Shown here piece by piece: positions 1,769-33,327 of a stretch of DNA of 34,850 bases. Location: contig JAKPNC010000085.1 in the NCBI GenBank assembly GCA_029548585.1, positions 1-34,850 of the forward strand. The letters are read 5' to 3'. Position 1 is the first letter of the stretch. Every line of letters begins with the position of its first letter. The translations under genes were made by a program, and so were the position numbers. The DNA comes from a bacterium (GTDB taxonomy: Bacteria > Ratteibacteria > UBA8468 > B48-G9 > JAFGKM01). Under the pieces are notes generated by a model that searched no databases, had not been told where the DNA came from, and saw only the letters and a list, made by a program, of their open reading frames with translations.

Positions 1769-2716
1769 ATGCTTACCTTAAAAAAGTGTCTTCTGCTGCA
1801 GACGATTCTGGTATTTTTTTCATCCTCCCTGCTCTTTTCACAGCCTGCCTCCCTGAAATTTTCGGGTTTTATCAACGACTACACGGGAACCCTCGATGAG
1901 GGAGAAAAAGAATCTCTGGAAAATCTCGTGCAGTCCATTGAGCGGGAAACCTCCTCCGAGATAGCCGTGGCGATAATAGACAGTCTCGGAGGCGACAGCA
2001 TCGAAGATTACGCCAACGAGCTGTTTAACGGGTGGGGCATAGGGAAAAAATTGAAAAATAACGGGGTCCTCATGCTGGTCGTATTGAAGGAGAGGAATAT
2101 AAGGATAGAAGTCGGCTACGGTTTAGAATCCGTACTTCCCGACGGACTTTGCGGCAGGATAATAAGGAACTCCATCTCCCCTGAGTTCAGGAAAGGCAAT
2201 TTTTACGGTGGAATCCACGCCGGCATACAGGATATTTCAAGCGCTATACGGGGCAAGGATCCTTACCCGGACGCAGGCCTGGCAGGAAACAAAGGCAAAG
2301 GGGCCGCGGCCTTCTTTGCGGTGTGGCACATTTTCCTCATCTTTTTCTCCTACGGGCTCCTCCGCAAAGCCGGCATAATCTCATATGCCGCTCTCATAGC
2401 CATTCTTGCGATTTTCACTTTTTCCGCCAGGGGCATTCAAAAGGAGGAAGTCCTTCTCTTCTTCACGCTAATACCCTTTTTTTTCGTCTTCCTGATGGGG
2501 CTTCTGTCTCCCCTGATATTCGCCATAGTTGCATGGAGGCTGAAGAAAAAGTATAAAGGCGGCTGGAAATCCCGTATGCCGTCATACATGAAAAACATAA
2601 TGGCCTATTCCGATTCGCGCGGAGGATTCCGGGGCGGTGGAGGAGGAAGCTTCGGTGGAGGGGGAAGCTTCGGTGGAGGCTCAAGCGGAGGAGGAGGAGC
2701 CAGCGGAAGCTGGTAA
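1769..2716 (+). CDS. TPM domain (YgcG family) membrane protein with Gly-rich C-terminus
   Basis: Signal peptide, FINDYTGTLDEGEKESLENLVQSIERETSSEIAVAIIDSL...NNGVLMLVVLKERNIRIEVGYGLESVLPD, TM segments, GGGGSFGGGGSFGGGSSGGGGASGSW tail. Confidence 0.9.
   Translation: MLTLKKCLLLQTILVFFSSSLLFSQPASLKFSGFINDYTGTLDEGEKESLENLVQSIERETSSEIAVAIIDSLGGDSIEDYANELFNGWGIGKKLKNNGVLMLVVLKERNIRIEVGYGLESVLPDGLCGRIIRNSISPEFRKGNFYGGIHAGIQDISSAIRGKDPYPDAGLAGNKGKGAAAFFAVWHIFLIFFSYGLLRKAGIISYAALIAILAIFTFSARGIQKEEVLLFFTLIPFFFVFLMGLLSPLIFAIVAWRLKKKYKGGWKSRMPSYMKNIMAYSDSRGGFRGGGGGSFGGGGSFGGGSSGGGGASGSW
2645..2679 (+). repeat. Two 17-nt direct repeats GGAAGCTTCGGTGGAGG (18-nt period) in the Gly-rich tail
   Basis: Direct reading: 2645-2661 and 2663-2679 are identical. 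Confidence 0.85.
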
Positions 2717-2733
2717 AAGGCAAAGGCAAAAAA

Positions 2734-3402
2734 ATGGAAGAGGAAATACGTCGGAAAGTCTCGTTTTTCATCAAGAAACTGATAGAAACTTTCAACGGAA
2801 GGCTCCTGAGCGTAATAGCCTACGGAAGCAGCGCAGACGGCAGTTACGTGCCAGGGAAATCCGACATCAACCTGCTGGTCGTTGTCGGGGAACTGACATT
2901 CGAAGACATGCGCATTCTCAGAAAAACGGCCGTCAGAAATGCCGTTAAGAACGGCATCTCCCCTTTCTTCTTCACCCCGGAATTCATCAGGGGTTCTGCG
3001 GACACCTTCGCGGTGGAATGGAAGGAGATGAAAGAGAAACGCCTGGTTTTGTTCGGAAGTGATATAATAAAAGATATACAGGTGGAAAACAGGGACCTGC
3101 TCTTGCAGCTGGAAAGGGAAATAAAGCAGAATTACGTGAGATTTCAGCATGCCATGATATTTGACCCTGACATTTATTACGCCCTCGGAGAGTCTTTCAG
3201 AACCCTGAAGGTTTTTCTCCGAAACTCGTACAGGGCCATGGGAAAGAAGATTGAAAGGCCGCCGTACTTCAGCGAGCTCGAACGGATCCTTGACAGGAAA
3301 CCCTTCTTCTGCAGGAAGGAAAAAACGGAAAGCCTGGCCCGGCAACACCTCGCTTTTCTCGGGGACCTCCTGCAGTCCTTTGACAAACCCGCCGGGACAT
3401 GA
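2734..3402 (+). CDS. Nucleotidyltransferase-fold protein
   Basis: VIAYGSSADGSYVPGKSDINLLVVVGEL = GS-x(n)-DxD motif of Pol beta-like nucleotidyltransferases. Confidence 0.75.
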   Translation: MEEEIRRKVSFFIKKLIETFNGRLLSVIAYGSSADGSYVPGKSDINLLVVVGELTFEDMRILRKTAVRNAVKNGISPFFFTPEFIRGSADTFAVEWKEMKEKRLVLFGSDIIKDIQVENRDLLLQLEREIKQNYVRFQHAMIFDPDIYYALGESFRTLKVFLRNSYRAMGKKIERPPYFSELERILDRKPFFCRKEKTESLARQHLAFLGDLLQSFDKPAGT

Positions 3403-3419
3403 CAAAAGGAGACAGGAAG

Positions 3420-3986
3420 ATGAAGAAATGGTATATCATACCGGCTCTGCTGGCATTGGCGGCAATAATCGTTTTTTCCCTCTTCAGGTCACATTACAAC
3501 AGGCTGGTATACCTTAACCAGCAGGCGGAAGAATCGTGGGCGCAGGTCGACAACGTGCTCCAGAGAAGAAACGACCTCATTCCGAACCTCGTGGAAACCG
3601 TCAAGGGATACGCAAAACACGAAAAAGAAGTCTTCGTGGAGATAACCGAGGCCCGCAGCCGCTGGGCGGGAGCAAAAACCCTCCAGGAGAAGGAAGGGGC
3701 GGCAAACGATATTTCCGGGGCTCTCGGGAAACTGATGCTGGTGGTTGAAAACTATCCGCAACTGAAGGCAAACGAAAATTTCCTGTCGCTTCAGGACGAG
3801 CTTGCAGGGACCGAAAACAGGATCTCGGTGGAAAGGAAAAGGTACAACGGATCCGTGAGAGAATATAACACGGCCGCCCAAAGCTTTCCAACGATGATCT
3901 TTGCCCGCATCTTCGGCTTTGAAAAAGAGAAGGATTACTTCCAGGCCCAGGAAGAAAGCAGGACTGTCCCGCAAGTGACCTTTTAA
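3420..3986 (+). CDS. LemA family protein
   Basis: MKKWYIIPALLALAAIIVFSLFRSHYNRLVYLNQQAEESWAQVDNVLQRRNDLIPNLVETVKGYAKHEKEVF: canonical LemA (ORF open from 3399). Confidence 0.95.
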   Translation: MKKWYIIPALLALAAIIVFSLFRSHYNRLVYLNQQAEESWAQVDNVLQRRNDLIPNLVETVKGYAKHEKEVFVEITEARSRWAGAKTLQEKEGAANDISGALGKLMLVVENYPQLKANENFLSLQDELAGTENRISVERKRYNGSVREYNTAAQSFPTMIFARIFGFEKEKDYFQAQEESRTVPQVTF

Positions 3987-4857: not shown

Positions 4858-6390
4858 ATGGAAAAAAGCGAAAGAGAGATAGACATACTCATACGGGCGC
4901 GTTATCCCATCATCTTCGTTGCAACCTACGAAGAAGAGAGATTTTCCTCTTTTCTGGACAGGCTCAGCAAACAGCAGAATAAGAGACTGCTGGTCTGGTC
5001 CATTACTTCAGGGATGCAGAAATACGGAGAAACGGGTGTGGATGAATCCACCAGGGATCCGTTGGCGGCTCTCAACTGCGCGGAAAAAGAGACCGGCCCG
5101 GCTATCTTCCTTTTCAAGGATTTCCACCCTTACCTTTCCGACCCTTCCGTCGTGCGCAAGCTGAGGGACCTTTCGAGCAATCTGAAGAGCACTTACGAAA
5201 CGCTGGTACTGGTTTCACCTGTCCTCACGGTTCCCCCGGAACTCGAAAAAGATGTCGCAATAGTGGATTACCAGCTGCCGGACAGGGAAGCGATAGGGAA
5301 ACTCCTGGATACAATCATTAAAGCCGTTTCGTCAAGGGGGACAATAAAGCTCGATGCGCCGGCGGAGGTGAAGGAAAAGCTTGTCGATGCCGCTCTCGGA
5401 TTAACCTTCAACGAGGCCGAAAACGCTTTTGCCCGGGCGATCATAACCGACAACGCGCTGGGCCCCAAGGACGTCGACAGGGTGCTCTCGGAAAAGAAAC
5501 AGATTATCAGGAAGTCGGGCATCCTCGATTATTTTCACACGGAAGAGGATATAGGCAGCGTCGGAGGTCTCGACAACCTGAAAGCATGGCTGGAAAAGAG
5601 GGCGCTTGCCTTTACCCGGAAAGCGAAGGATTTCGGGTTGCCCGAGCCGAAGGGCATCCTCCTGGCAGGAGTCCAGGGTTGCGGGAAATCCCTGACGGCC
5701 AAGGCAGTTTCAAACCTCTGGCAGATACCTCTTCTCAGGTTCGACGTAGGACGGGTTTTTTCCGGAGTGGTGGGATCTTCGGAAGAAAACATGAGGAAGG
5801 CCATAAAGACGGCTGAATCGATCGCACCGGTCATTCTATGGGTTGACGAGATAGAAAAATCCCTTTCGGGAGTCCAGAGCTCATCCTTCTCAGATGCGGG
5901 AACGAGCGCCAGGGTCTTCGGAACCTTCATAACCTGGCTCCAGGAAAAAACAGCTCCTGTTTTCGTCATTGCGACGGCCAACAACATCGACCTGCTCCCT
6001 CCCGAACTACTGAGAAAGGGAAGGTTCGACGAAATTTTCTTCATTGACCTTCCGAACCAAAATGAAAGGATTGAAATCTTCAGGATACACCTTATGAAGA
6101 GAAAAAGAAAACCTGAGAATTTTGACCTTGAAGCTCTTGCTTCGGCCTCCGGGAATTTCAGCGGAGCCGAAATAGAACAAGCGGTCATTTCGGCCCTCTT
6201 TGACGCCTTCGTGGATAATAGGGATCTTCTAACGGGAGACGTGGAAAAAAGCATAAGGGCCACCGTCCCGCTTGCCACAACCATGAGCGACAAGGTCAGG
6301 AACCTCCGGCAGTGGGCGGAAACCCGGACAGTACCTGCAACGGCAAGGAGGATTGGGATTGCGGAGCAGGGGAGAAAACTCGAGTTCTGA
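4858..6390 (+). CDS. Ycf46-type AAA+ ATPase
   Basis: GILLAGVQGCGKSLTAKAVSNLWQIPLLRFDVGRVFSGVVGSSEENMRKAIKTAESIAPVILWVDEIEKSLSG...VFVIATANNIDLLPPELLRKGRFDEIFFIDLPNQNERIEIFRIHL, with an N-terminal non-ATPase domain as in Ycf46. Confidence 0.88.
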   Translation: MEKSEREIDILIRARYPIIFVATYEEERFSSFLDRLSKQQNKRLLVWSITSGMQKYGETGVDESTRDPLAALNCAEKETGPAIFLFKDFHPYLSDPSVVRKLRDLSSNLKSTYETLVLVSPVLTVPPELEKDVAIVDYQLPDREAIGKLLDTIIKAVSSRGTIKLDAPAEVKEKLVDAALGLTFNEAENAFARAIITDNALGPKDVDRVLSEKKQIIRKSGILDYFHTEEDIGSVGGLDNLKAWLEKRALAFTRKAKDFGLPEPKGILLAGVQGCGKSLTAKAVSNLWQIPLLRFDVGRVFSGVVGSSEENMRKAIKTAESIAPVILWVDEIEKSLSGVQSSSFSDAGTSARVFGTFITWLQEKTAPVFVIATANNIDLLPPELLRKGRFDEIFFIDLPNQNERIEIFRIHLMKRKRKPENFDLEALASASGNFSGAEIEQAVISALFDAFVDNRDLLTGDVEKSIRATVPLATTMSDKVRNLRQWAETRTVPATARRIGIAEQGRKLEF

Positions 6391-6423
6391 GAACCCAGGG
6401 CCGCAATCTTTGGCGGCGCCATA

Positions 6424-7185
6424 ATGGACAATAAAGACAGGTTCGGAAAGATAGAGAATGAAAGCATAACGGTCGGCATAACCAGGAAGGAAAAAAGGGA
6501 AAGCAGGTTTGACCGTCTGGAATACTCCGATGATGCCGGACAACCCGGTCCCGCACCTGCCGCAGATAAAAAGTATTTCCCCTGTTTCAGGTGCAACAGG
6601 AACAACCGGGCCGGCAGCCTTTACTGCATATACTGCGGCGAGATCTTCCCTGATGTTGCCGAGTCGACGGGAAGCGGCCTTGAGCCGTACGAGATAAGAT
6701 GCCCACAGTGCGGGAAAACCGGAAACAGGAACCAGAAATCCTGCATATGGTGCGGACACGGTTTTGTTCCGACGGAAGAAAATATCCTGGCCCGTGGAAC
6801 CCCGGTCGAGATAGAGATAAACGGCATAAGGTACAGGTCGACCGACAGGTACCTGCCCGGGTTTGTAAGGGAAGCCATGGTAAAAATGAAGAAAGGCGGC
6901 CTTTCACCCGCAGAAAAAGAAGAGATACTCAGGGAACTCAGGGCAAAACAGGCAGGGAGCAGGTTTGAGGTTCTCCTGTCGATAGAAAAAGGAAGGAATG
7001 CGGCCGCGGCGTACTCTCTCCTGGCAGCGGGAGGATTTATCACTTTCGGCGCAATGATACTTGCCGATCTGAAAAAGCCGGTTGCCGCACTTATTGTCGG
7101 CATCCCCGGATTCCTTATTATCTTGGCAGGAATGTTGATGCTTGCGATTTCCGGGAGAGAAAACGGACAAAATCCCATGGGATGA
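6424..7185 (+). CDS. Double zinc-ribbon membrane protein
   Basis: CFRCNRNNRAGSLYCIYCG and CPQCGKTGNRNQKSCIWCG motifs, C-terminal hydrophobic pair (AYSLLAAGGFITFGAMILADL, VAALIVGIPGFLIILAGMLMLAI). Confidence 0.75.
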   Translation: MDNKDRFGKIENESITVGITRKEKRESRFDRLEYSDDAGQPGPAPAADKKYFPCFRCNRNNRAGSLYCIYCGEIFPDVAESTGSGLEPYEIRCPQCGKTGNRNQKSCIWCGHGFVPTEENILARGTPVEIEINGIRYRSTDRYLPGFVREAMVKMKKGGLSPAEKEEILRELRAKQAGSRFEVLLSIEKGRNAAAAYSLLAAGGFITFGAMILADLKKPVAALIVGIPGFLIILAGMLMLAISGRENGQNPMG

Positions 7186-7235
7186 CGGGGATGCACCAGG
7201 GGCGGTTGAACCGGCCTTTAATAAAGGAGAGGAAG

Positions 7236-7649
7236 ATGAGCGCTCTGTGCGGCATCGAACTTGTGATAGAAAGCCTCATGATGCTAAGGAAAACCCTTGA
7301 CGACCTTAAGATCCGTTATGCCCTGCTTGAAGAGATGGAAAAAAGCGAGAAAACGCTTTTCGAGATCCAGACAGGGGAAGGGAAAACAGAGCTTGCAGAA
7401 ATAATTATTAACGACGGAAGCGGTACCAGGACAGGTTTTCAGAAACAGGCTGACGGGAGATACAGGATCATATCAACGGCTTCTTCAAGAGAAGAATCGA
7501 GGCAACAGAAAAAGCTCGCCGGCAGGATAAAGCGCAGGTACGCTTACAACAGGATCAGGGAAGAATTATCAAAGCAGGGGTACCTGGTCGTGGAAGAAGA
7601 GAAAGAAGGCGATGAAACCGTCAGGATACTGGCAAGAAGGTGGAGATAG
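7236..7649 (+). CDS. DUF1257 (Ycf35-like) protein
   Basis: AAAGGAGAGG RBS then ATG 7236; MSALCGIELVIESLMMLRKTLDDLKI...TGFQKQADGRYRIIS...KLAGRIKRRYAYNRIREELSKQGYLVVEEEKEGDETVRILARRW matches the DUF1257 pattern (dGxY..., YAY.., RRW end). Confidence 0.75.
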   Translation: MSALCGIELVIESLMMLRKTLDDLKIRYALLEEMEKSEKTLFEIQTGEGKTELAEIIINDGSGTRTGFQKQADGRYRIISTASSREESRQQKKLAGRIKRRYAYNRIREELSKQGYLVVEEEKEGDETVRILARRWR

Positions 7650-7705
7650 AAGATTTATGCGCACGGAGATTTGCAGGCCAAAAGCCCGCCAGAAATCAGG
7701 AGAAG

Positions 7706-7933
7706 ATGAACAAGAAAGAAGAACTGGAGATCTTCATATCGGAAGAGGGCGAGATAAAGGTGCGGGTCAGGGGCGCCAGGGGTGGTTCCTGCATGACGGT
7801 CCTTGAAAAATTCGCAGGCAAAGTCGGCAGGATCAGGGACGTGGTAAAAACCCCCGAGTTCTACCAGGAAGACGTAAGCACAACAGGAAAAATCAGGCAG
7901 GAAAGAAGACACGGGATGCAGGGGAAGAACTGA
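7706..7933 (+). CDS. DUF2997 protein
   Basis: MNKKEELEIFISEEGEIKVRVRGARGGSCMTVLEKFAGKVGRIRDVVKTPEFYQED: I.I..dGei...v.G..G.sC......G.v.....TpEfY pattern, position immediately after DUF1257. Confidence 0.75.
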   Translation: MNKKEELEIFISEEGEIKVRVRGARGGSCMTVLEKFAGKVGRIRDVVKTPEFYQEDVSTTGKIRQERRHGMQGKN

Positions 7934-25678: not shown

Positions 25679-27604
25679 TTACTGCTTTCTGACCAGCACC
25701 CCCATGCTCTCGAGATGGGGGGTGTGGGGGAAGAAATCCGCGCAGTAGAGTTTTGCCAGCCTGTAGCCTTCTTCTTCCATATGCCTGACATCCCTGGCAA
25801 AGGCCGCAGGGTTGCAGGAAACGTATATCAGAGACGGGATCTTCAGAGAGAAGATGTTCTTCATCGCCTTGCCGGATATTCCCGCCCTCGGAGGATCCAG
25901 CACCAGGGTATCGTATTCCTCCAGGGAAGCTTTCTTGAAAATGTCTTCAACCGAGCTGTGCTGGAAGTTGCAGTTTGTGACGGAGTTGATCCTGCAGTTT
26001 TCCATGGCATTGGTTATGTTGGACTGCTCTATGTCTATTCCGCAGGCGGTTTCAACGGCGTCCGAAACGGATATTTCAATGGCCCCCGCACCGCAATAAA
26101 GGCCCAGGATCCGCCTTGAACCGAGCTCAGCAAGGTTTTCCCTTATGCGGGAATAAAGAAGCCCTGCCGCCCTGGTATTGGGCTGAAAGAAGGTAGAAAG
26201 GTGGACCCTGAATACCTTGCTGCCCATTTTCTCCTCTATCCACGGATTCCCCAAAAGGTGGTTCTTCTTCTCAAATGAAACAACGTCAGAAAGGCGGTCG
26301 TTTTCAACCCACCAAAGGCTCGCAACCTGGGTTTTCCCCCCGGCAAGCATATCCGCAAGGCGGGTAATGTCAAAAGAGGGACAGCTTTTTGTGACCAGTA
26401 TCAGCATGAGTTCGCCGGTATTCTTTCCCTCCCTCATGACAAGATGCCGGAAGAAGCCCTCTCCCGTACGGGGATCGTAAGCTTTAAGGCCGGTCTCTTC
26501 CGCAAACTGCTTTACCAGCGGGAAGAGAGACCCTGCCGCTTCGCTGAATATCATGCAGCCATCCAGGGGCGCTATCCTGCTGCGGCTCTTGTTGAATGGC
26601 AGGCTCCTTTCTCTCAGTCCCAGGACGACCTTCCCCCTGTCATTGCCAAAGGCAAACTCCATCTTGTTCCTGTAATAGAAAATGTCAGGGGACGGAATTA
26701 TCGGATGCCTTTCGATCCTTTCCCCGTCTATGCCGCCTATCTTCTTCAGGGTGGCCATCAGATACCTTTCCTTCAGTTCGGCCTGCTTTTCATAACAGGT
26801 ATTCTGGAAAGAACATCCTCCGCATTTCCCGAAAGCCGGGCATGGAGGTTCGGTCCTGAAGGGAGATTGCTCGATAATGCGGGAAGTCTCCCCGTAAGAA
26901 AAATTTCCCGCGTCCTTTACAATTCTCATCTTTATCCTGTCGCCGTAAACGGCATTCTGGACAAAAACGACCTTGCCTTCAGCCCTTGCCACCGCCCAGT
27001 TGTTAGGAAAAGCTATATCTGAAACGGAGGCTTCTGTCTCCGGAAGACAAAACCTGTGGAGAAGCCTTTTCACCTTCTTTACAGGCAGGCCGACGACGTT
27101 ATCGAAATCGCCTTCTATCTTTTCCACGAAAGAGGCTTTCCCGCTCTGTATGGCATATCCTCCGGCCTTGTCCTTGTAATCTTCCCCTGAAAGGTATTCT
27201 TCTATCTCAGGCTCTTCTATACGGTTGAAGGTTACATAGGTAAGATCGTAGTCGGTGAGCATCCTGTCGTCTTCCTTCCTGTAGACGGCTATGCCGGTGA
27301 TAACCTTGTGCTTCTTTCCGGAGAGCGACCTGAGGATATCGCCTGCTTCCTTTCTGTCGGCCGGCTTGCCTATGATCCTTCCTTCGATGGAAACGACCGT
27401 ATCGGAAGCAATGACGGTTGCAGAGGGATTCTTCTCGCCCACATTTTTCGCCTTCAGCGCCGAAGCCTGAACGGCGAAGAGGACAGGGTCATTCTCCCTT
27501 ATGTCCTGTTCGTTGACATCCGGCTCCACGACACTGAAATCCTGTACGACCTTTTTCAAGAGCTCCCTGCGCCTGGGAGATGCGGAAGCAAGTATTATAT
27601 TCAT
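25679..27604 (-). CDS. Maf-family nucleotide pyrophosphatase fused to RlmD/TrmA-type RNA (uracil-C5)-methyltransferase
   Basis: Residues 1 to ~185: ILASASPRRRELL...VIASDTVVSIEGRIIGKP...GGYAIQSGKASFVEKIEGDFDNVVGLPV (Maf). Residues ~192-641: TRAM-like domain, CPAFGKCGGCSFQNTC, FYRNKMEFAFG, FFQPNTRAA, ILGLYCGAGAIEI, LDPPRAG, IYVSCNPAAFARD (RlmD/TrmA family). One uninterrupted frame. Confidence 0.93.
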   Translation of the reverse strand: MNIILASASPRRRELLKKVVQDFSVVEPDVNEQDIRENDPVLFAVQASALKAKNVGEKNPSATVIASDTVVSIEGRIIGKPADRKEAGDILRSLSGKKHKVITGIAVYRKEDDRMLTDYDLTYVTFNRIEEPEIEEYLSGEDYKDKAGGYAIQSGKASFVEKIEGDFDNVVGLPVKKVKRLLHRFCLPETEASVSDIAFPNNWAVARAEGKVVFVQNAVYGDRIKMRIVKDAGNFSYGETSRIIEQSPFRTEPPCPAFGKCGGCSFQNTCYEKQAELKERYLMATLKKIGGIDGERIERHPIIPSPDIFYYRNKMEFAFGNDRGKVVLGLRERSLPFNKSRSRIAPLDGCMIFSEAAGSLFPLVKQFAEETGLKAYDPRTGEGFFRHLVMREGKNTGELMLILVTKSCPSFDITRLADMLAGGKTQVASLWWVENDRLSDVVSFEKKNHLLGNPWIEEKMGSKVFRVHLSTFFQPNTRAAGLLYSRIRENLAELGSRRILGLYCGAGAIEISVSDAVETACGIDIEQSNITNAMENCRINSVTNCNFQHSSVEDIFKKASLEEYDTLVLDPPRAGISGKAMKNIFSLKIPSLIYVSCNPAAFARDVRHMEEEGYRLAKLYCADFFPHTPHLESMGVLVRKQ

Positions 27605-29448: not shown

Positions 29449-30450
29449 ATGTTACCTGCAGGAAAAACAAAAATAATGGTAAAAGAATCCGAAGTGCGCG
29501 GCATACTGAGGGATTTCGGAATAGACAATCCCGGGAAGATCTCTGAGGGAGGAGGAACCGCCTCTCCAAAGTATATTTTCACGTCCTCGGGGAAAAAGTA
29601 TCTTTTGAAACAGAGGCGCAGGGAATTCTCACCCTTGCCGGTTGTTCTGTTTGACCACTCGGTGATAAAGCACCTGTCAAGAAACGGCCTGCCCGTAGCC
29701 ATTCCTTCTTATTCGGCAAAAACAGGCTGCGAGCTCTTTGAATATATTGAAAACCTGGAAGACTTCACCCAGGGAAACAGGGAAGAGATGTCAGGCGCCG
29801 CTGAAATGCTCGGCCGTATGCACAGGATACTTCATGACTTTGTGCCGGAAGGAAGCAAAAACTGGCAGAGGGAATTTTTGCCTTCCGGGATAAAGGCGGA
29901 ACTGCTGAAACATATCGAAGAGCAGCCGGGACTTTTTCATGGGAAAGAGACCGTCAGATTGGTAATGGAACTTCTTGACGGCCTTATTGAGAATTATTCC
30001 GTGAAAAATCTTACCCGCTCGATAGTTCACGGCGATTACACGAGCGCAAACGTAAAGTTCAAGGGCAATCTCGTGGGCGGCATATTCGATTTTGACTGGA
30101 CGTCCTTACAGAATACGCTGTATGACATTTCGAGAGCGCTGGTATACTTCTGCTTTAAAAGAAAGAACGCCCTTGACGGGAAAAATATCTGGTCTCTCGT
30201 GCAGCCCTGTGAAATCGACATTGAGAACGTCAGGCAGTTCATGAAATCCTACAGGAGAGAATTCATTTTCACGCAGGCAGACGCAGAAGGGCTCCATTTT
30301 GCGCTTAAGGAGTTTTTCATAGGCGCCCGAGTCAGGGCGATGAGAAAAGTGCCTGACGCAGAAAAGATTAAGATGCTGGATGAGAAACTCGTAGAAATGG
30401 CAATAACCGTAGAAAAGGAGAAAAACTCTCTCGCCCAAGCCTGCGGGTAA
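29449..30450 (+). CDS. Phosphotransferase (APH/homoserine kinase II-like fold)
   Basis: KKYLLKQRR..., LTRSIVHGDYTSANVKFKGNLVGGIFDFDWTSLQNTLYDISRAL: HGDxxxxN ... DFD catalytic motifs. ATG 29449 or internal ATG. Confidence 0.82.
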   Translation: MLPAGKTKIMVKESEVRGILRDFGIDNPGKISEGGGTASPKYIFTSSGKKYLLKQRRREFSPLPVVLFDHSVIKHLSRNGLPVAIPSYSAKTGCELFEYIENLEDFTQGNREEMSGAAEMLGRMHRILHDFVPEGSKNWQREFLPSGIKAELLKHIEEQPGLFHGKETVRLVMELLDGLIENYSVKNLTRSIVHGDYTSANVKFKGNLVGGIFDFDWTSLQNTLYDISRALVYFCFKRKNALDGKNIWSLVQPCEIDIENVRQFMKSYRREFIFTQADAEGLHFALKEFFIGARVRAMRKVPDAEKIKMLDEKLVEMAITVEKEKNSLAQACG

Positions 30451-30536
30451 AGGAAAACCCACTTCATCATAATTTCTTATGAAATTGTGGCTATGGCAGT
30501 TAATTCAAACGCATTAAATTTCTATTCGTTATCCCA

Positions 30537-30725
30537 TCACGCTTTTGAAGAACAACGCAGGCTTACAGTAAATGTCCCGGGACTTTTGGGAATATCCAGA
30601 CTGGCGATATAATTCCTGAGATTCCCCATACCCTTATCCAGGTATCCCACCTCAACAACAAAAACAATACACAGCAAAATCAAAATCCGCTTGAACAGCA
30701 GCCCGTACCGTATTCTCATATGCAT
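30537..30725 (-). CDS. Small single-TM hypothetical protein
   Basis: 62-aa ORF with hydrophobic segment ILILLCIVFVVEVGY; adjacent to and co-oriented with the next ORF; weak RBS. Confidence 0.3.
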   Translation of the reverse strand: MHMRIRYGLLFKRILILLCIVFVVEVGYLDKGMGNLRNYIASLDIPKSPGTFTVSLRCSSKA

Positions 30726-30738
30726 ATTCTCAATAAAG

Positions 30739-31179
30739 TCATTCTATCCAATCAGGATTTTCTCCTTCTATCAGATTTATTCCTTTGCCGATTTCAATGT
30801 TGTGAATATAAATGTAATCTTTCATATTAAAAGCATATTTGATATTTAAACCCACCGGAGCTTTATGTGTGCTCGCAAAATATTTATCGTCAGGAGACCA
30901 GCGAGGGGCATAACACCAATCATCACAAGAAACAACAGTTTTTGCTGATAATGCGGTAAAATCAAAAACTCTGATTTCTCCCCTTCTGGTGTCTTTTGTT
31001 AAAAAATAATTGTGCTGGAAAACAATCTTTCCATTTGGAAAAGCAGCCCCCCCAAAAGTTTTTGCAATCTTATTAGCAGGAACAGTGCTAACTGTATAAA
31101 AGAGAATACTTCCCAGTATCCCAATGCCTATACAAATTGTAAATATTCTCTTAATCATTGCCATTCTTCTTTTTCCCAT
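30739..31179 (-). CDS. Hypothetical exported/anchored protein with a single TolB/PD40-like repeat
   Basis: N-terminal TM then VFQHNYFLTKDTRRGEIRVFDF...WCYAPRWSPDDKYFAST. Confidence 0.5.
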   Translation of the reverse strand: MGKRRMAMIKRIFTICIGIGILGSILFYTVSTVPANKIAKTFGGAAFPNGKIVFQHNYFLTKDTRRGEIRVFDFTALSAKTVVSCDDWCYAPRWSPDDKYFASTHKAPVGLNIKYAFNMKDYIYIHNIEIGKGINLIEGENPDWIE

Positions 31180-31211
31180 CGTATGTTATCCTTCCCATTT
31201 TCCTTTATGTC

Positions 31212-31970
31212 TCAATCCTTCTTCATAGATTGAATAATTTTCTCCCTGACGTCAGATATTGAAGGACTCTGTAAGAATTCCGCAGGCAAATCTTTCTTTA
31301 AATAATGTTCCTGAAAATTTCGCAAGACCTTGTCAGCCTTTTCTGACAGTTTCGCATCCGTCCTAACGGTATTTAAAGTCCCTATAATTGATAACGATTG
31401 CTGATTCATCTTCTCGTATACTTCGCTCTTGTTCTCCATCCTTTCTATCCGTGGGAAAAATCCACTCCATACTTCCCAGAGAAATTGAATAATAATGGTT
31501 CTATTTTCTGCTGGATACTCTTGGTTTTTCACAAATTTTATGCCTACATCTATCGTACTTAGTTCTTGCTCCAATGCCATTCCACCTCTTTCTTTTGGTT
31601 CTTTTATGTAACCATCAATACCTTCTTTTTCCCATTTTTTAAAATTTTCAGGAATATTTTCTTTAAATTTGTTGAAGTATAGATAACTCTCCACAAATGA
31701 AAGAGGAGTATTTTTCCAGTCAGATAGCCCTCCATAGGCCAAAATCCAGCCAGCTGCTTCAGGCTCTCTCTTTGCAGCTTCAATCGCCAGAATATATACT
31801 TTTTCTGGACCTAAAGACTTCAAGTATTGTTTTAACTCTTCTTTATTAGAAACTTTCCTCTCGAGAATCTCTTTTGCCTCTCGGGAAAAATCAGTAGTCG
31901 TCTGTGCTTCTCCACGTACAAATTGGCCGATAGTCCCCAATAAAATTAGACATACTATGAACCTCACCAT
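31212..31970 (-). CDS. Hypothetical exported protein
   Basis: Long ORF (open to 32027); internal Met gives signal peptide MVRFIVCLILLGTIGQFVRGEAQ; no family recognised. Confidence 0.55.
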   Translation of the reverse strand: MVRFIVCLILLGTIGQFVRGEAQTTTDFSREAKEILERKVSNKEELKQYLKSLGPEKVYILAIEAAKREPEAAGWILAYGGLSDWKNTPLSFVESYLYFNKFKENIPENFKKWEKEGIDGYIKEPKERGGMALEQELSTIDVGIKFVKNQEYPAENRTIIIQFLWEVWSGFFPRIERMENKSEVYEKMNQQSLSIIGTLNTVRTDAKLSEKADKVLRNFQEHYLKKDLPAEFLQSPSISDVREKIIQSMKKD

Positions 31971-32289
31971 TTGCTCTGTTCCCCTTACGTTTCTTAAAGT
32001 TTCAAAAGAATTCCTGCTCAGTCTCACAAAAATTCCTTATTCAAACTATTTGCAATTCAAACTTCTGACAGTGATGGATATATCCGGACTGACCTTACCC
32101 CCAAAAACCGGCCATTGACAATTAGAGCATACTATAAAAAAATGGGTAAAGCAATGACAGAAGCAAACCAGATCAAGACTTGTATAAAGAAGGGATAATG
32201 TCACTCTTCTTTTCAGTTAATCTGTCACTTCCCGTATGGACGGCTGGCTAAGGTTGAAACAAGATCTTCTTACCATACCTGTCAATCCT

Positions 32290-32317
32290 TTTACAGGCTC
32301 TCCTGTTGGTGTATAAT
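32290..32317 (+). promoter_or_regulatory. Sigma70-like promoter for RF-like/rpe/hisD unit
   Basis: TTTACA (32290-32295), 16-bp spacer, TATAAT (32312-32317), 34 nt before ATG 32352. Confidence 0.7.
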
Positions 32318-32351
32318 AATATGTCATGGGAGCCATTGAGCCGGAGAGGAG

Positions 32352-32669
32352 ATGAAAAAGGAAGACATAGAGCTTTATTTTTACAGGAGCAGGGGGCCCG
32401 GAGGACAGAGAAAAAACAAGAAAGAGACCGCCGTGAAGGCGATCCACCTTCCCACGGGTATCGTATCCAGGGCGACGGAATACAGATCCCAGGCAAAGAA
32501 CAGGGAACTTGCCCTTCAACGCCTGGCGGAAAAGGTGGAAGCCTCCAGGAAACCCCGCAAGAAAAGGATCCCAACCAAAAAACCCTTCTACGCAAGGGAA
32601 AAAGAGTTGAAAGAGAAGAAGATTCGTTCGGAGAGAAAAAACCTGAGAAAAAAGGTGGACCAGGAATAA
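32352..32669 (+). CDS. Small RF-1-domain (GGQ) release-factor-like protein, ArfB-like
   Basis: LYFYRSRGPGGQRKNKKETAVKAIHLPTGIVSRATEYRSQAKNRELALQRLAEKV plus very basic C-terminal tail; GAGGAG RBS. Confidence 0.88.
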   Translation: MKKEDIELYFYRSRGPGGQRKNKKETAVKAIHLPTGIVSRATEYRSQAKNRELALQRLAEKVEASRKPRKKRIPTKKPFYAREKELKEKKIRSERKNLRKKVDQE

Positions 32670-32679
32670 GGAGAACGTG

Positions 32680-33327
32680 ATGAAAAAGATCAAGATAGCC
32701 CCATCCATGCTTTCATCGGATTTCAGCCGCCTCGGGGAAGAAGTCCGGAAAATATCGGAAGCCGGCGCCGACATGATACATTTTGACGTTATGGACGGCC
32801 ACTTCGTTCCAAACATAACCTTCGGACCCATGGTCATCGGTTCGGTAAGGAAATTTTCTTCCCTGGTATTCGACACGCACCTCATGATTTCGGATCCGGG
32901 CAAATACTGGAAGGCGTTTGCGGACACCGGCTCAGATATAATCGGAGTACATATAGAAACAGAAATGGACCATAAATCCATAATTAAGGATATACAGCAA
33001 TATGGCAAAAAAGCCTGCATAGTTATCAACCCTCCGACAAACATTGAAAAGATCTACCCATTCCTGGAACAGGTTGAGCAGGTTCTCGTAATGAGCGTCA
33101 ATCCGGGCTTCGGGGGGCAAAAATTCATGCCGGAAGCCCTTCCCAAAATAGAAAGCCTTGCCGGGATCAAGGCCAGGAAGAACCTCGGCTTCGAGATACA
33201 GGTTGACGGCGGCATAAACGAGGAGACGGCAAGGATATCAAAGGAAGCGGGTGCGGAGATACTTGTTGCGGGTTCATACATATTCAAAAACCCTGATTAC
33301 AAAAAACCAATTGAGAGTCTGAGATGA
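32680..33327 (+). CDS. rpe: Ribulose-phosphate 3-epimerase
   Basis: IKIAPSMLSSDFSRLGEEVRKISEAGADMIHFDVMDGHFVPNITFGPMVI...VLVMSVNPGFGGQKFMPEALPKI...IQVDGGINEETARI. ORF open from GTG 32677. Confidence 0.97.
   Translation: MKKIKIAPSMLSSDFSRLGEEVRKISEAGADMIHFDVMDGHFVPNITFGPMVIGSVRKFSSLVFDTHLMISDPGKYWKAFADTGSDIIGVHIETEMDHKSIIKDIQQYGKKACIVINPPTNIEKIYPFLEQVEQVLVMSVNPGFGGQKFMPEALPKIESLAGIKARKNLGFEIQVDGGINEETARISKEAGAEILVAGSYIFKNPDYKKPIESLR

Follow-up and report, generated by a model that had tools for sequence, protein, structure and literature searches.

A Ycf46-type AAA+ ATPase encoded with a zinc-ribbon membrane protein and a recurrent DUF1257-DUF2997 pair in an uncultured bacterium

In plastids and cyanobacteria, Ycf46, Ycf35 (DUF1257), and DUF2997 are known as conserved orphan families. 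The closest described systems are cyanobacterial and plastid Ycf46 (slr0374) and the DUF2997-ycf35-fed7 operon of Synechocystis, which contain the same AAA ATPase, DUF1257, and DUF2997 families as the locus described here. The operon has already been published as cluster g, which unites the DUF pair and a ferredoxin; fed7 is induced by low iron, and Fed7 binds a DnaJ-like protein (PMC4284462). Both the protein families and this cyanobacterial DUF2997-DUF1257-ferredoxin cluster are thus already known. In sampled cyanobacteria, the DUF1257 gene often directly follows the ATPase gene. Among other AAA+ proteins, Cdc48/p97 unfoldases are recruited by short motifs on adaptors, while MoxR/CbbQ-type proteins serve metal enzymes.

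The window analyzed here is a stretch of 34,850 nucleotides (contig JAKPNC010000085.1) from the genome of an uncultured bacterium (2.17 Mb, 274 contigs). In contrast to the Synechocystis operon with its ferredoxin, the window has the ATPase gene, the DUF pair, and a zinc-ribbon gene all in one place.

The cassette and its motor

The cassette consists of four genes on the + strand (Table 1). A preliminary description of the sequence had pointed out their common orientation and short spacing, which is borne out by intergenic gaps of 33, 50, and 56 bp. The starts of the DUF1257 and DUF2997 genes are preceded by GGAG, a Shine-Dalgarno-like sequence, and that of the zinc-ribbon gene is backed by homologues beginning at the same place. 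Genes for a TPM-domain protein and LemA (1769-3986) precede the cassette by about 1 kb; a relative from the same family (L008 7892-9392) has them directly downstream of it.

Table 1 Features of the cassette, with positions in the window
Feature	Position	Strand	Basis
Ycf46-type AAA+ ATPase, 510 aa	4858..6390	+	Pfam AAA; PHROG_8638; Cdc48/p97 D2 as closest solved relatives; alignment
N-terminal half of ATPase (residues 1-232), probable first AAA unit without Walker A, plus lid	4858..5553	+	strand order by inspection; CDC48 model; hhalign
Walker A GVQGCGKS (residues 271-278)	5668..5691	+	alignment of homologues
Walker B VILWVDEIEK (D330 and E331)	5830..5859	+	alignment of homologues
Arginine-finger region (R386 and R389)	6013..6024	+	alignment of homologues
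ATPase C-terminal tail RKLEF	6373..6387	+	recurrent [LIM][ED]-hydrophobic C-terminus
Double-zinc-ribbon membrane protein, 253 aa, proposed membrane adaptor	6424..7185	+	DZR match; four CxxC; hydrophobic stretches
First N-terminal motif RFGKIE of zinc-ribbon protein	6439..6456	+	sequence
Second N-terminal motif RFDRLE, 22 residues past the first	6505..6522	+	same spacing in all four Omnitrophota zinc-ribbon proteins
Eight-cysteine double zinc ribbon	6583..6753	+	Pfam DZR; CxxC pairs
DUF1257 (Ycf35-like) protein, 137 aa	7236..7649	+	PF06868
DUF2997 protein, 75 aa	7706..7933	+	PF11211

The ATPase matches Pfam AAA at residues 267-397 (E = 4e-28) and PHROG_8638 over its full length (E = 1e-147). 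Since neither Pfam nor NCBIfam holds a model named Ycf46, its assignment as Ycf46-type, which upholds the earlier call, is based on full-length similarity to cyanobacterial AAA ATPases adjoining DUF1257 (42-50% identity over nearly the full length, N-terminal half included). Walker A, Walker B, sensor 1, and the arginine finger are all present in the alignment. Invariant in 13 diverse homologues were (i) G271, G274, G276, K277, and S278 in Walker A; (ii) D330, E331, and K334 in the Walker B region; and (iii) R386, G388, and R389 in the arginine-finger region.

The nearest solved structures are those of Cdc48/p97 (E about 3e-54, over the second AAA domain), with which the ATPase shares intact D2-type catalytic residues. 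The CDC48 model TIGR01243 aligns with residues 140-450, through the active domain, at 111.3 bits, compared with a family cut-off of 802.65. When the two halves of the protein were aligned to each other with hhalign, their lids matched with a P-value of 1.8e-4, at a probability of only 23%. Judged from the model alignment and this comparison, the ATPase is a relative of tandem AAA unfoldases that falls outside CDC48. Its N-terminal half is probably a first AAA unit without Walker A; this sets it apart from Cdc48/p97, as does the lack of a recognizable Cdc48 N-domain. Family membership suggests that it forms a hexameric ring.

A short C-terminus of the form [LIM][ED]-hydrophobic is common among Ycf46-type ATPases. 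At chromosomal loci, the raw association between an RxLEF-type tail and the DUF pair was strong (29/37 with the pair vs 4/31 without). The association was absent in viral loci, and it lost robustness after dereplication and in independent pairs on the tree. The tail was hence discarded as a docking motif for the pair, and the link is suggestive only.

The zinc-ribbon protein scored marginally above the curated cut-off of DZR (PF12773; E = 3.9e-6, 27.4 vs 27.3 bits), in line with its earlier designation. Its four CxxC (at 54, 68, 93, and 107) make up two Cys4 ribbons. Two C-terminal hydrophobic stretches, at about 194-216 and 216-245, agree with the membrane link previously ascribed to this protein.

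Elsewhere in the window, three further observations were made. A cysteinyl-tRNA synthetase gene (31-1336) appears to be split over the overlapping frames 31-936 and 815-1336, which suggests a frameshift, due to either a sequencing error or a broken gene. An unusual 641-aa ORF on the - strand (25682-27604) fuses a Maf domain (residues 2-184) to a tRNA (uracil-5-)-methyltransferase-type domain. The region 30500-33300 has a lower GC content (0.39 in 30001-32000 vs about 0.51 elsewhere) and contains four - strand ORFs without Pfam match; possibly, it is an acquired segment.

The DUF1257-DUF2997 pair across genomes

Both small proteins exceeded the Pfam cut-offs of the families to which they had been assigned: the DUF1257 protein matched PF06868 over residues 33-131 (E = 4.3e-14, 53.0 bits vs cut-off 22.2), and the DUF2997 protein matched PF11211 over profile positions 1-47 of 47 (E = 2.9e-8, 33.9 bits vs cut-off 24.1). 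The DUF1257 protein starts with MSAL and not with the usual MSH of the family, a sequence outside the Pfam definition; M1 and S2 are conserved, and the H is replaced in the window clade and in others. In DUF2997, G15, G26, C29, and G41 were at least 90% conserved among 48 sequences.

The AF2 model of the DUF1257 protein was confident (pLDDT 87, pTM 0.78) and gave no match with E < 0.5 in the PDB; its predicted fold is therefore possibly one so far unsolved. Matches to KA1 recurred, but a KA1-like fold was rejected at E > 0.5 and a TM of about 0.33. The DUF2997 model was poor (pLDDT 66). A SUI1/YciH-like fold for DUF2997 was likewise rejected, as matches were weak (E = 0.02 and 0.78) and the structure search lent no support.

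In the phylum of the window, the ATPase and DUF1257 occurred in the identical 5/35 genomes, always adjacent and always with DUF2997. Scanning 84,980 species genomes with the ATPase alignment, we kept the best-scoring 80 chromosomal loci, which are not a random sample and came from Omnitrophota, Planctomycetota, Armatimonadota, Chloroflexota, Myxococcota, Cyanobacteria, Hodarchaeota, and others. DUF1257 and/or DUF2997 lay near the ATPase at 38 of these 80 loci and at 44/80 viral loci. Where both occurred together (61 loci), they were on the same strand in all cases and at most 700 bp apart in 55. The pair was conserved beside ATPases in bacteria, Hodarchaeota, plasmids, and viral contigs. Most carriers belong to non-photosynthetic groups, in keeping with the earlier remark that nothing else here is photosynthetic, and the expected proximity of the DUF families to Ycf46 ATPases in other genomes was recovered.

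About half of the sampled ATPases have no DUF pair, so the ATPase does not need it in general. In one planctomycete class, 57/150 genomes encode the ATPase and 8/150 encode DUF1257; in every one of the latter eight, a copy lies close to an ATPase of the Ycf46 type (six established by coordinates, two by inspection). Among Armatimonadota, the ATPase was present in 98/151 genomes and DUF1257 in only 15, near a Ycf46-type ATPase in 8 of these 15 (by coordinates; one by inspection). In two Armatimonadota genomes, DUF1257 lies beside a ClpB/ClpC-type AAA+ protein, an FHA protein, and an NrdG-like gene. At L301 (1840-5024) and L302 (5133-8249), DUF1257-DUF2997 adjoins a ClpB/ClpC-type AAA+ gene and a gene for a small FHA protein. 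A Pseudanabaena plasmid carries the pair with Hsp70, and GrpE-Hsp70-DUF1257 stand there in one gene run.

The preliminary description had proposed a portable module of four genes. Portability is supported, but the fixed core is the DUF1257-DUF2997 pair and not the set of four: the ATPase often lacks the pair, and the pair sometimes stands with another motor. The zinc-ribbon gene, one of the four listed there, is not a fixed member: it was present in only 3/5 cassettes of the phylum and is one of several exchangeable partners.

An N-terminal motif in the partner proteins

The window's zinc-ribbon protein carries the motif RFxx[LI]E twice at its N-terminus, with a spacing shared by 4/4 Omnitrophota zinc-ribbon proteins. 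In two Myxococcota proteins, the motif recurs after 23 or 25 residues; the motif-bearing Myxococcota proteins resemble the window's zinc-ribbon protein in layout and have no Pfam match. Motif-bearing partners were found beside ATPases in five phyla, on unrelated folds: (i) the zinc ribbon with hydrophobic C-terminus in the window clade; (ii) TPR proteins in Planctomycetota, L009, and L036; (iii) NHL repeats in Armatimonadota; and (iv) an SNF2 helicase in Chloroflexota. The ATPase is what these partners have in common, as they occur both at loci that have the DUF pair and at loci that lack it. Beside the sampled cyanobacterial ATPases, we saw no convincing RFxxLE partner.

For counting, we took same-strand ORFs that lay no more than 3.5 kb from the ATPase and had a length of 150 aa or more, and required the motif in the first 45 residues. 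It was present at 25/138 chromosomal, 0/52 viral, and 0/8 plasmid loci, the motif having been defined after the first examples were seen and gene starts being automatic. As controls for the 138 chromosomal loci, residues 46-90 of the same ORFs gave 4 loci, antisense ORFs gave 1, and shuffled N-termini gave a mean of 0.6 (maximum 5 in 300). On the ATPase tree, the motif label changed at least 14 times, with at least 9 changes forced by well-supported branches; the motif is therefore not simply one inherited neighborhood. The follow-up set consisted nearly entirely of one family (NHL), in which many cases are homologous to each other.

When seven genomes were scanned for MxxRFxxLE, a convincing N-terminal motif appeared only in the gene beside the ATPase. 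The candidate role of RFxxLE as a genome-wide client tag was rejected, as unlinked matches at the fixed offset were short ORFs or internal codons.

In related operons (L039, L040, L036, and L009), a gene for a PilT-like T2SSE ATPase follows the TPR/RFxxLE gene, and the planctomycete operons among the related ones start with a radical-SAM gene. A connection of these operons with type IV pili is possible.

Proposed mechanism and alternatives

The reading we favor, with somewhat less than even confidence, is that the cassette encodes a Cdc48-like remodeling motor, which is tethered to the membrane through a zinc-ribbon adaptor carrying the motif and works with a DUF1257-DUF2997 adaptor pair. The ATPase would form a Cdc48/p97-like ring; its first AAA unit probably no longer binds ATP, and its second would act as the motor. 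The zinc-ribbon protein may recruit this ring to the inner membrane, with the two RFxx[LI]E tags on its probably disordered N-terminus docking on the ring. DUF1257 and DUF2997 would hand the client to the motor; an adaptor role is suggested for them because the pair stays while the motor changes (ClpB/C-type AAA+ or Hsp70). The client is probably an Fe-S or radical enzyme, or a partner of one; the pair also occurs with Fe-S proteins (NrdG-like, HdrC-like Fer4, and cyanobacterial Fed7), although no such gene adjoins it in the window.

A wider proposal, which we put forward even more tentatively, is that RFxx[LI]E serves as a docking code not described before. Through it, a bacterial subfamily of Ycf46-type motors would engage partners of different function (zinc ribbon at the membrane, TPR, NHL propeller, and SNF2 helicase). 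In the same proposal, DUF1257-DUF2997 would be an adaptor pair that can move between AAA+ motors and has ties to Fe-S/radical-SAM clients.

Alternatively, the motor and the DUF pair could act as an activase, opening or repairing an enzyme of the Fe-S or glycyl-radical type and thereby enabling an NrdG-like activase or a ferredoxin to act, with the conserved cysteine of DUF2997 joining the chemistry. Like the client proposed above, this alternative draws on the genes in the vicinity of the pair. At plasmid and Treponema loci, genes of the '4Fe-4S single cluster' type match NrdG/PflA-type radical-SAM activases, although these linked proteins score below the NrdG/PflA equivalog cut-offs. By profile search, NrdG-like genes were detected only at DUF-positive ATPase loci (15/82 vs 0/78 DUF-negative; Fisher p 0.02 for chromosomal and 0.002 for viral loci, related sequences not being independent), and they also occur on plasmids and with the ClpB/C variant. 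Genes for HdrC-like (Fer4) and HdrA-like proteins follow one DUF pair. The Fed7 operon of cyanobacteria, with the induction of fed7 by low iron, the near-invariance of Cys29, and the covariation of plastid ycf35 and ycf46 with habitat in red algae are also in its favor. MoxR/CbbQ/NorQ-type activases offer a possible working analogy, in which an ATPase and a small partner stand beside a metal or radical enzyme; unlike those systems, the window cassette shows no MoxR-type Pfam match and no VWA partner. Still, most DUF-positive loci have no such enzyme gene nearby, no Fe-S or radical-SAM gene is next to the window's own cassette, and the cysteine is replaced in a few viral DUF2997s. We consider an activase less likely than the adaptor-bound remodeling motor.

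Considerably less probable is a mobile or conflict-related module that chromosomes have captured, serving in phage counter-defence, plasmid stability, or defence. The module is common in viral contigs and among conjugative plasmids, an antitoxin-like ATPase related to Ycf46 has been mentioned for SGI1, and the AAA domain is distantly similar to that of IetA from the IetAS anti-phage system (E = 6e-22). That similarity is limited to the AAA domain, however, and no IetS-like protease was recognized beside the window ATPase. Membership in a known anti-phage defence system was not supported by the PADLOC component models, which gave no match for the zinc-ribbon, DUF1257, and DUF2997 proteins. The window cassette has an ordinary GC content with no integrase recognized beside it, and the ATPase frequencies in Armatimonadota and the planctomycete class are as for a chromosomal gene.

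A role in carbon uptake or photosynthesis-related regulation has been proposed for cyanobacterial Ycf46, as inactivation of ycf46 in Synechocystis was reported to reduce activity of the carbonic anhydrase EcaB (Jiang 2015, as cited in PMC7496141); we regard it as very improbable here, since most carriers are non-photosynthetic and the EcaB effect can be indirect. Chance neighborhood without functional link would fit the gene orders and partner sets differing between phyla, but it is hardly credible given the identical distribution within the phylum and the repeated adjacency in distant groups.

In the literature searched, which missed most subscription papers and so gives weak evidence of novelty, we found no earlier account of the module across phyla, of the exchange of its motor, of its link to NrdG-like genes, or of RFxxLE. 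The survey ties DUF1257 and DUF2997 into a fixed pair, shows motor exchange, and connects this pair with Fe-S/NrdG-like enzymes. As a short peptide motif open to direct testing, RFxx[LI]E offers a concrete route to the role of a widespread, unexplained motor.
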